From NCBI GenBank assembly GCA_017798125.1, contig CP059070.1, forward strand, positions 2,666,001 to 2,730,000: a stretch of DNA of 64,000 nucleotides. Reading direction: 5' to 3'. Source of the stretch: Cryomorphaceae bacterium (GTDB lineage: Bacteria > Bacteroidota > Bacteroidia > Flavobacteriales > ECT2AJA-044). This document shows positions 16,308 to 56,752 of the stretch, in pieces; the stretch's first letter is position 1, and each line of letters opens with the position of its first letter. The position numbers were made by a program, and so were the translations under genes. A model generated the notes under the pieces. That model had not been told where the DNA came from, made no database searches, and saw nothing but the letters and a program-made list of their open reading frames with translations.

Positions 16308-16742
16308 TTAGGCGATACTGATTTGACGCGGAGCCTGCACCTTCGCTTCTTCTCTCTTAGGAATCGAAATATTCAAGATTCCATCCTCATACGTGGCTCC
16401 GATCTCCTGCATGTCTGCGCTTTTGGGAAGTTTAAAACGGCGCTCAAAGCTTCCATAGTTAAATTCCTTACGCGCAAACTTGCCCTTGGTTTCCTCCTCC
16501 GTGCTAACCTCGGCAGAGACCACCAATGTTTCGTTTTCTAACTCAATTTTGAAGTCCTCCTTCTTGAGTCCTGGGGCCGCAAAAGCCAATCCAAAGGCAT
16601 CGTCGTGCTCGACAATATTCACAGCAGGTGACGTTCCTTTTGCGCGAGTCACGAAGTCGTCGTGAAAAAGATCACGCATAAAAAAGTCGTCGAAGATGCT
16701 GGGGAAAGCCGGTTTGCGGTTGTGTTTGATCAATGTCATCAT
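16308..16742 (-). CDS. Small heat-shock protein (Hsp20/alpha-crystallin)
   Basis: 144 residues from the ATG at 16742; an open extension to 16967 would run through the promoter and is rejected. The alpha-crystallin domain spans about residues 40-135: AFGLAFAAPGLKKEDFKIELENETLVVSAE, the YGSFERRFKLP loop, and the C-terminal ISIPKRE. Acts as an ATP-independent holdase for unfolding proteins. Regulation is the interesting part: a sigma-54-type promoter and two upstream dyads precede it (separate entries). Confidence 0.93.
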   Translation of the reverse strand: MMTLIKHNRKPAFPSIFDDFFMRDLFHDDFVTRAKGTSPAVNIVEHDDAFGLAFAAPGLKKEDFKIELENETLVVSAEVSTEEETKGKFARKEFNYGSFERRFKLPKSADMQEIGATYEDGILNISIPKREEAKVQAPRQISIA

Positions 16743-16808
16743 TGTATGTTTTAATCGTTGATTATCTGGTTTGTTGAAGACCCTTGTTCGCGTCTTCCCC
16801 CTCCTTAA

Positions 16809-16825
16809 GTCAAGATGTGTGCCAG
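16809..16825 (-). promoter_or_regulatory. Sigma-54-type -24/-12 promoter of hsp20
   Basis: Minus strand reads C-TGGCACA-CATC-TTGA-C, against consensus TGGCACR-N4-TTGC: only the last base of the -12 box deviates. Predicted start near 16800, leaving a leader of about 58 nt. Confidence 0.65.
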
Positions 16826-16829
16826 TGGG

Positions 16830-16853
16830 TTTTTGGGCCTCACGGTCCGATAA
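16830..16853 (-). repeat. Hairpin element copy F (in hsp20 promoter region)
   Basis: Minus strand: TTATC head, arm GGACC, loop GTGA, arm GGCCC (one mismatch), then AAAAA. It sits between the -24 element and the upstream dyads. Confidence 0.5.
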
Positions 16854-16855
16854 AA

Positions 16856-16903
16856 TGACCGATTTACATGTCATTATGGCGTTTTTGGCTCGATTTATAT
16901 GCC
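16856..16903. promoter_or_regulatory. Two phased dyads upstream of hsp20 (candidate enhancer sites)
   Basis: Unit 1 (16856-16873) is TGAC..GTCA and unit 2 (16887-16903) is GGC..GCC. Both enclose the same core CGATTTAYATG, at 16860-16870 and 16891-16901, exactly 31 bp apart (about three helix turns). They lie about 55-105 bp upstream of the predicted sigma-54 start, where activator sites belong. Confidence 0.5.
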
Positions 16904-16930
16904 TTTTTGGCGGTTTCAGGAGTCCTGCCC

Positions 16931-17554
16931 CTACCAAAGTCCGCGGAGCAAGACCAGCGCACCCCATAGAACAAGCCCTCCAGCTAAGAGTCGCTGGAAG
17001 CGAAAGACCTGTCGTGGTCGAGCCAACTTTTTAAGCCGCTCTGCGCCGAGAATTTTGAAGGCGTCGGCCAGAATGAAAAAGAAGAAAGTAGCACCAAAAT
17101 GAAGCCCTAGTGTCCGAGGCTCCATGTTGTATCGGCTTCCTACGAGAAGAACCACAGTCACCCAAAACAAGATGACTCCGGGGTTCACGATATTCAGTAA
17201 AAAACCCTTGGTGAATAAGCCCAGCATTTTCCGAGTACTGGGTATGTGCTTTTGAGAAGGTCTTTGATAGCGAAAGGGCTTGACAAAAAGATAGACACCA
17301 TAGGCCATGATGGCTACTCCCCCGACGATGAAAAACCAAGGGTTGTCCTGTACTAGATGCTCCAATTGACGCGAGGCTAGGTAGGCCAGGATTAGGCAAA
17401 AGAGATCACTGGTCAGTATTCCCAAGTCCAAAACTGCCGCAGCAAGTGGCCCCTTGGAAATACTGGTATCCAACAACACAAAAAAGACCGGGCCAATAAG
17501 AAAGGCCAGAAGGATTCCGAGCAAAGCTCCCTGCAGCAAGAGCTCCAACATCAT
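16931..17554 (-). CDS. LysE/RhtB family exporter
   Basis: 207 residues with six hydrophobic segments. GPVFFVLLDTSISKGPLAAAVLDLGILTSD (about 22-51) is the family signature, and GFLLNIVNPGVILFWVTV (about 113-130) the second. Exports amino acids or related small metabolites. Last gene of the five-gene minus-strand operon; its start overlaps the GT39 stop by 4 bp (ATGA). Confidence 0.88.
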   Translation of the reverse strand: MMLELLLQGALLGILLAFLIGPVFFVLLDTSISKGPLAAAVLDLGILTSDLFCLILAYLASRQLEHLVQDNPWFFIVGGVAIMAYGVYLFVKPFRYQRPSQKHIPSTRKMLGLFTKGFLLNIVNPGVILFWVTVVLLVGSRYNMEPRTLGLHFGATFFFFILADAFKILGAERLKKLARPRQVFRFQRLLAGGLVLWGALVLLRGLW

Positions 17555-51129: not shown

Positions 51130-51591
51130 ATGGTGACACCCGACCACCAAGAGCAAGTCAAGGAAGTTTTTACGACTTATTTAGAGCAAAACGGACAGCG
51201 GAAGACGCCGGAGCGCTTTGCCATTTTGAAGGAAATCTACGATCAAAAGGATCATTTTGACGTGGAGTCTTTGTACATCAAAATGAAGAATAAAAACTAC
51301 CGGGTTTCTCGGGCGACCTTGTACAATACCATTGAACTTTTATTGGACAGCAACTTGGTGCGCAAGCATCAATTTGGCAACAACCAGGCGCAATACGAAC
51401 CCTCCTTTTACGACAAGCAGCATGATCACGTCATTATGACGGATACAGGAGAGGTCATTGAGTTTTGCGACCCGCGAATTCAGCAAATCAAGTCTTCAAT
51501 TGAAGACCTCTTGGGTGTCAAAGTATTGAGTCATTCTCTGTACCTTTACGCCCTTAAAAATCCTCCCGCTGAGGGAGATTCAGAATCATAA
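51130..51591 (+). CDS. Fur family transcriptional regulator
   Basis: 153 residues. Winged helix ~15-85 ([32 protein letters not shown]), dimer domain with [20 protein letters not shown]. There is a single cysteine and no CxxC pair, so the structural four-cysteine zinc site of many Fur/PerR proteins is absent. Could be Fur, PerR or Zur-like. 31 bp after rel and 10 bp before purA, so probably co-transcribed. A candidate to act on iron genes such as the DUF6607 operon, but the operator there looks more DtxR-like. Confidence 0.9.
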
Positions 51592-55426: not shown

Positions 55427-56752
55427 TTACCGCTCTTTAACCCGATAAGCTGCAAAGCGATGGCGCATGGGCCAAAGGGCCAGAATGGCGAAAACGAAGA
55501 AAAGGCTTAGCGCCATGATGGACATACGCATGTTCCCTGTTAAAGACTCCAGTAAGCCATAAATGAAAGTCCCCAAGATGATGGCCACTTTCTCCGTTAC
55601 ATCGAAAAAGCTGAAGAAACTCGTGTGTTTGGTAGCGTCTTCTGGAAGCATTTTACTGTAGGTTGAACGGGCCAGGGCTTGCACTCCGCCAAGAACTAAT
55701 CCCACGGCCGAGCCCAAGGCAAGGAATTTGTACTGAACAATAGGGTCATCGGCCTGCAAGGCAAAAGCAACACCACCCATAGACGCCCAAACCAAGAGGG
55801 AGGCAATCAGTGCGCGGATGTTTCCGATCCTTGAACTGAGATAGGAGAAAAACTGCGCTCCAACAATCCCGAGGAGCTGTATCAAAATAATGGTCCCAAT
55901 TAGGTAGGTCGACTCCAATTCCAATTCCTTTTCTCCAAAAAGACTAGCGACGTAAATAATGGTCTGAACACCAACGGAGAGCATGAAAAAGCCAATGAGA
56001 AAACGCTTGAGATCTGCCATTTCACCCAATTGTCTCCAAACAGATCGTAGTGCTCGGTAGCCGTTCCCAAGGACGTCTTTGGTAATCTTACCCCCATCTC
56101 TGGGTTCAGGCAAGCGACGAAAGGTAAACTGCGCAAAACCTATCCACCAAACGGCCACCATGAGAAAACTGATCCTAGACGCCTGACCCGAGTCGGCCAA
56201 ACCAAAGGTCTCGGGCTGAAGGATCATCGCCAAGTTGGCAATGAGTAGCAAGGTTGCCCCGATATATCCGTAGCTGAAGCCCATGGCCGAGGTTGCGTCT
56301 TGTTGATCTTCAAAAGCGACCTCTGGTAAATACGCGTTGTAGAAAACCAAGCTTCCCCAAAATCCAACACTGGCAATGACACTCAAGGTCAAGGCCAAGC
56401 CTACATTTTCTCCATTGAAAAAGTACAGACCAGCACAGGCGGCCGCACCGATGTAGCAAAAGACTTGAAGGAATCTCTTTTTAGAGCCAGAGTAATCCGC
56501 TATTCCGGACAGAATAGGCGACATTATGGCAACCAATAAGAAACTAAAGGACAAGCAGTAGCTGTAGATGACCGTATTCTCCCAATCCGTTCCTAAGAAC
56601 CGGACCAAATTGTTCTCCTCACCCGTGGTGACCGACCCATAATAGATCGGGAACACGGCTGTGGCAATGACTAAGGAATAAACCGAATTGGCCCAATCGT
56701 AAAAGGCCCATCCACGTCTTGCTCGCTTCGATCCTTTAATGAACTCAGGCAT
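55427..56752 (-). CDS. UMF1-type MFS transporter (Atg22-like)
   Basis: 441 residues, about 12 membrane helices. The start [29 protein letters not shown] is the UMF1/Atg22 family signature. The central loop about 215-250 is cytoplasmic. Substrate unknown (amino-acid efflux in yeast Atg22). Its start overlaps the aconitase stop by 8 bp, so it is translated from the aconitase mRNA. Confidence 0.88.

Follow-up and report, generated by a model that had tools for sequence, protein, structure and literature searches.

The locus described here bears on how the heat-shock response is controlled in the Bacteroidota, a dominant phylum of guts and oceans. Start-site mapping in Flavobacterium psychrophilum has placed sigma-54 promoters at groESL, lon, dnaK, grpE-dnaJ, htpG, skp and clpB, the activators being left open by the authors (PMC9723704), and a 2025 survey predicts that sigma-54 promoters are enriched at the Bacteroidota chaperone genes for IbpA, GroES, GrpE and DnaK (PMC12316311). 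The genome under study (2.84 Mb, one contig) is assigned to this phylum by the nearest relatives of its hsp20, all of them from Bacteroidota, and by its TAnnTTTG promoters; it was found to have a sole Hsp20 gene. It is located in the window, that is, the whole 64,000-nt stretch of DNA analyzed, with a co-directional gene of the LysE type (16931-17554) on its 5′ side. The features of the locus, in window coordinates, are as follows:

16308-16742, minus strand: hsp20, small heat-shock protein of 144 aa (Pfam HSP20, 8.7e-27)
16809-16824, minus strand: sigma-54 -24/-12 element TGGCACACATCTTGAC, backed by its shuffle score, its conservation in the sister species and its recurrence at Bacteroidota hsp20 genes
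16837-16847, minus strand: possible degenerate third site GACCGTGAGGC, centre 18 bp before the TGG, GNC-N5-GNC outline only
16860-16870, plus strand: proximal copy of the core proposed by the first-pass annotation, CGATTTACATG, mostly dyad flank and not conserved in the sister species
16869-16881, minus strand: proximal putative activator dyad CGCCATAATGACA, centre 51 bp before the TGG (about -77), held-out matrix score 15.2
16891-16901, plus strand: distal copy of that core, CGATTTATATG, likewise mostly dyad flank and not conserved in the sister species
16900-16912, minus strand: distal putative activator dyad CGCCAAAAAGGCA, centre 82 bp before the TGG (about -108), held-out matrix score 12.1

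A putative sigma-54 element upstream of hsp20

On the minus strand, nucleotides 16824-16810 read TGGCAC-ACATC-TTGA. When compared with the sigma-54 consensus TGGCAC-N5-TTGC, the -24 half and the spacing are perfect and the single departure is an A in place of the -12 C. A match to the consensus save for one base had been claimed by the first-pass annotation; this holds, and the element is moreover kept, as CTGGCAYRCANNTTGACT, in a sister species of the same genus whose Hsp20 is 73% identical and whose upstream region has strongly diverged. When the 200 nt upstream of hsp20 were shuffled 4000 times with dinucleotides preserved, 10 of the shuffles reached its score. As the -12 sequence seen most often at hsp20 promoters of the Bacteroidota is TTGA itself (37/98, TTGC being found in 23/98), the apparent mismatch is normal for the phylum. 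Taking the -12 position at 16810 as reference, transcription is predicted to start near 16798, which would leave a 5′ UTR of about 56 nt.

The absence of an rpoN or NtrC-type gene had been named beforehand as an argument against sigma-54 control. The genome encodes RpoN (PF04552, 9.1e-54; TIGR02395 above its cut-off) together with six strong Sigma54_activat proteins.

Two dyads precede the sigma-54 element at a fixed spacing

The minus-strand order upstream of hsp20 is CGCCAAAAAGGCA ... CGCCATAATGACA ... TGGCACACATCTTGAC. The two upstream sites, proposed from the outset to lie 31 bp apart, do so exactly. They had been drawn as TGAC-N10-GTCA and GGC-N11-GCC dyads sharing the core CGATTTAYATG; as neither these arms nor the core are kept in the sister species while two 13-bp dyads of the form TGNCA-N3-TGNCA (16869-16881 and 16900-16912) are, the real dyad is shifted from the one described. 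The sister species carries CGACAAAAAGTCA as distal and CGCCAATATGACA as proximal counterpart, with the same 31-bp spacing and the same 51 and 82 bp to the promoter. The arms of the distal dyad are GCC/GGC here and GAC/GTC in the sister species, a compensating change by which the symmetry is kept. The repeated sequence TTTTTGGC, also pointed out by the first-pass annotation, belongs in part to the distal dyad and in part to the neighbour of that dyad. In the shuffle set described above, two dyads of the observed quality never turned up (0 of 4000), nor did dyads and sigma-54 element jointly (0 of 4000).

The possible third site, GACCGTGAGGC, fits the phase and has GGCCGAGAGGC as its counterpart in the sister species, but with a matrix score of -7.5 it is weak.

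Searching the genome with CGATTTAYATG, the check initially suggested, returned two matches, both of them upstream of hsp20, and the non-conserved core was discarded as a regulon motif. A search for single TGNCA-N3-TGNCA dyads gave 404 matches in this genome versus 340 for the reversed pattern; the 32 places read among the matches listed, with about half of the genome covered, yielded no additional phased pair next to a strong promoter. Within the window, strong single dyads are present at 51429-51441 and 56519-56531, inside genes which we take, by eye, to encode a Fur-like regulator and an MFS-like transporter. They are not accompanied by a strong in-phase sigma-54 element and are probably due to chance.

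The dyads recur across the phylum on one helical face

The comparison was extended to 107 Bacteroidota hsp20 upstream regions, 77 being loci from named genomes and 30 coming from genomes of the order, this one included. The sigma-54 score exceeded the 95th percentile of shuffles in 53 of the 107, versus 1 of 107 reversed controls, and the TGNCA-N3-TGNCA dyad recurs upstream of these elements, with a total of 186 sites versus 10 in the reversed controls. The dyad matrix was trained on the named-genome set alone (134 sites in 77 upstream regions versus 7 reversed); when applied to the 30 held-out regions, it detected 52 sites, at least one in 28 of them, versus 3 reversed. A strict pair pattern, TGACANNNTGNCAN{7,29}TGNCANNNTGNCA, was also tried and matched in 3 of 196 genomes, being too strict.

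Sites are mostly 31-32 bp from one another, followed by 20-22, 41-42 and 62-64 bp, and the distances from dyad centre to TGG cluster at 18-19, 29-30, 39-41, 50-52, 60, 71-73 and 81-83 bp. The 51 and 82 bp of the hsp20 gene studied here fall on these peaks. The dyads are phased to the sigma-54 promoter with a period of 10.55 bp (vector strength 0.90, n = 185), and hence occupy one helical face relative to it. The compared sequences share ancestry and their counts are not independent, which is addressed in part by the reversed controls and by a reduction to about one locus per genus; in the reduced set, a dyad is present in 54 of 59 loci (5 reversed), with the same period of 10.55 bp and a vector strength of 0.89 (n = 104).

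The Flavobacterium species sampled depart from this pattern: in all nine of them (L085, L087, L100, L103, L107, L110, L111, L113 and L119) both the dyads and the sigma-54 element are missing at hsp20. These nine species nonetheless have RpoN and the miaB-linked EBP described below.

These data bear on whether the element at hsp20 is a chance match, the gene being transcribed from an ordinary sigma-A promoter. The A at -12 would be in line with this, and so would the frequency of the plain pattern TGGCACN5TTG, which was rejected as a regulon search because it occurs near chance level (25 genome matches versus 19 for the reversed pattern). Nevertheless, no TAnnTTTG box is found within the 200 nt upstream of hsp20, element and both dyads have been kept in the sister species within a diverged region, the arrangement recurs across the phylum and the joint shuffle count is nil. 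We consider a chance match very improbable.

grpE-dnaJ and groESL as further candidate members of the regulon

The layout of dyad and phased sigma-54 element is also found upstream of grpE-dnaJ, in all six genomes tested (this one and five others with a readable grpE). In the present genome:

L311:1764-2318 (within G000:C1:1705500-1709500), minus strand: grpE, with dyad TGACATTGTGACA centred 19 bp before TGGCCTGCCTTTTGAT

We propose grpE-dnaJ, from the arrangement of these sites, as a second member of the regulon. groES has a conserved TGGCAYAATTTCTG element with a dyad or half-dyad near 19 bp from it, and 30 of 34 groES upstream regions contain a dyad, versus 3 of 34 reversed. The site in this genome is imperfect (TGACAAAATGTAC, 18 bp before TGGCACAGTTTTGG). 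As some of the groES dyads overlap a hairpin resembling the secG terminator, groES is the weaker case. In the secG-groES intergenic region (e.g., in L223 and L238), a dyad-like TGACAAGCTGGCA recurs as part of such a terminator-like hairpin, its distance to the sigma-54 element of groES being 39-41 bp.

A candidate activator encoded in the groESL cluster

One of the six sigma-54 activators is encoded in the same cluster as groESL, in the order topA / miaB-EBP-lptE-TPR-secG-groES-groEL:

C1:265099-266349 (L153:5099-6349): miaB-linked EBP (PF00158, 2e-68; HTH_8, 1e-12)
L153:3536-3548: dyad of the miaB operon in this genome

The GAFTGA-type loop of this protein reads GSFTGA. Its AAA+ part matches the solved domains of ZraR, NtrC, FleQ and PspF, but the protein reaches no NCBIfam family cut-off; with the PspF model TIGR02974 it scores 269 bits, below the 443.55 demanded. 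A Pfam search recognized neither a Response_reg domain nor any other N-terminal or sensor domain. As the EBP has no sensor domain of its own, the stress signal must come from elsewhere, be it the level of the EBP, a partner protein or chaperone titration. Orthologues were found in 38 of 38 further genomes, and so was RpoN, so that the presence or absence of these two proteins, universal in the sample, was dropped as a discriminator. Across 39 orthologues, 20 of the 41 residues of the HTH are invariant and LGISERTLYRKIK is unchanged, the stretch before the HTH being variable.

The miaB operon itself has a site. In the 38 clusters where miaB is readable (that of this genome and 37 others, L221-L258), exactly one strong dyad is present upstream of miaB in every case, versus 4 of 38 reversed, and there the dyad is not accompanied by a strong sigma-54 promoter in phase with it. 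A TAnnTTTG box follows 16-21 bp downstream of the dyad in 34 of the 38, which would place the dyad over the -33 region of a sigma-A promoter. As read from the sequence, this is the layout of autorepression.

That lone dyad is operator-like, and it suits another explanation, namely that the dyads are operators of a separate HrcA-like heat-shock repressor and that the sigma-54 promoters are activated otherwise. However, sites that stay in helical phase with the sigma-54 promoter from 19 to 100 bp away are what one expects for an activator and not for a repressor, and the operon at which the dyad sits encodes an EBP with its own HTH. Furthermore, the CIRCE inverted repeat (TTAGCACTC-N9-GAGTGCTAA) is absent from the 400 nt upstream of hsp20, where no half-site core is present either. 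We consider a separate repressor unlikely.

The hsp20 dyads might also be bound by another of the six activators, in the form of a two-component response regulator. Candidates exist among the six: in four response regulators a receiver is present and the AAA+ domain is followed by a C-terminal region; by Pfam, three activators besides the miaB-linked EBP have an HTH, and in one more the HTH went unrecognized. Against this stand two observations. No dyad pair was seen near the genes of these regulators, two of which have sigma-54-like elements of their own nearby. In addition, genome G038 has just two strong sigma-54 activators, one of them devoid of an HTH, and still the strong sigma-54 element at its grpE is preceded, at 19 bp, by a perfect dyad. 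As G038 has no other HTH-bearing activator, the miaB-linked EBP is favoured by elimination; grpE was used for this, the hsp20 locus of that genome (L144) being left out because its start codon lies upstream of the match. We regard a response regulator at the hsp20 dyads as quite improbable. The first-pass annotation had called for an NtrC-type regulator; sigma-54 activators are indeed present, but the one acting here is probably a sensor-less EBP instead of an NtrC-type response regulator.

A response regulator with a sigma-54 AAA+ domain and no recognized DNA-binding domain was noted at L151:4735-5949 and L192:1249-2421, both on the minus strand. Similar proteins of 384-413 aa occur in most genomes searched; in only a few genomes does this HTH-less EBP lie close to dnaJ.

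Discussion

The best-supported reading of the locus remains the activator-driven sigma-54 control of hsp20 suggested at the outset: RpoN and activators are present, the element is conserved and the dyads are phased. At a probability of about 0.8, we propose that the miaB-linked EBP activates hsp20, grpE-dnaJ and groESL through sigma-54 and the dyads, and represses its own sigma-A promoter. RNA polymerase with sigma-54 would transcribe hsp20 from the -24/-12 element at 16824-16809. The EBP, most likely that of the miaB-EBP-lptE-TPR-secG-groES-groEL cluster, would bind both TGNCA-N3-TGNCA dyads and would open the promoter by means of its AAA+ ATPase. At about -77 and -108, the dyads are separated by three helical turns and lie on the helical face which such sites share relative to the promoter. 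This EBP would act likewise at grpE-dnaJ and groESL; at its own operon it would sit over the -33 region of the sigma-A promoter and repress transcription, giving a self-limiting heat-shock switch. Because the same sites recur at chaperone genes and at its own promoter, the miaB-linked EBP is the likely master switch. From these sequence features we infer EBP binding, activation and autorepression, as well as heat or envelope stress as the signal. Speaking against this reading, the experimental sigma-54 map comes from Flavobacterium, whose sampled species lack the hsp20 sites.

If correct, one gene and one binding site are now proposed for the obligatory activator of sigma-54 chaperone promoters, and the dyad provides a handle for mapping the regulon across the phylum. 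Enhancer-dependent promoters do not usually have sites phased so strictly (10.55 bp) and at so short a distance, and the pattern suggests that the contacts have a fixed geometry instead of being made by free looping; the sites are nearer to the promoter than classical enhancers, which, DNA being stiff, suggests a stiff, short-range arrangement. More tentatively, the core heat shock of the Bacteroidota might be run by a single sensor-less, self-repressing sigma-54 activator acting at short, phased range, its activity being set directly by chaperone availability, for example by the GroEL encoded downstream or by a DnaK system holding it inactive. Doubtful as this still is, regulator and sensor would then reside in one conserved cluster, with no heat-shock sigma factor or repressor.

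With respect to previous work, hsp20 fits the sigma-54 (SM4) chaperone regulon of F. psychrophilum, which has the same kinds of targets (PMC9723704). Neither that study nor the 2025 survey (PMC12316311) names an activator or a site; what is put forward here is the dyad with its phasing, together with a cognate EBP that would repress its own operon. Our literature search, mostly without subscription papers, found no paper naming the activator, its site or its autorepression. Sigma-54 control of chaperone genes had already been mapped in F. psychrophilum; activator, site and autorepression appear to be new.

HrcA-CIRCE and sigma-32 control the same kind of targets (groESL, grpE-dnaJ, hsp20), but here the sigma factor would be a different one and control would be positive, and CIRCE is absent at hsp20. 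PspF and NtrC bind paired sites about three turns apart, and both repress their own promoters. Like the miaB-linked EBP, they are AAA+ activators with a C-terminal Fis HTH, and PspF also has no regulatory N-terminal domain. The miaB-linked EBP differs from both in that it falls below both NCBIfam cut-offs, in the sequence of its putative site and in its proposed chaperone targets; unlike the PspF and NtrC sites, the dyads described here come as close as about 19 bp to the -24 element and keep a strict phase.
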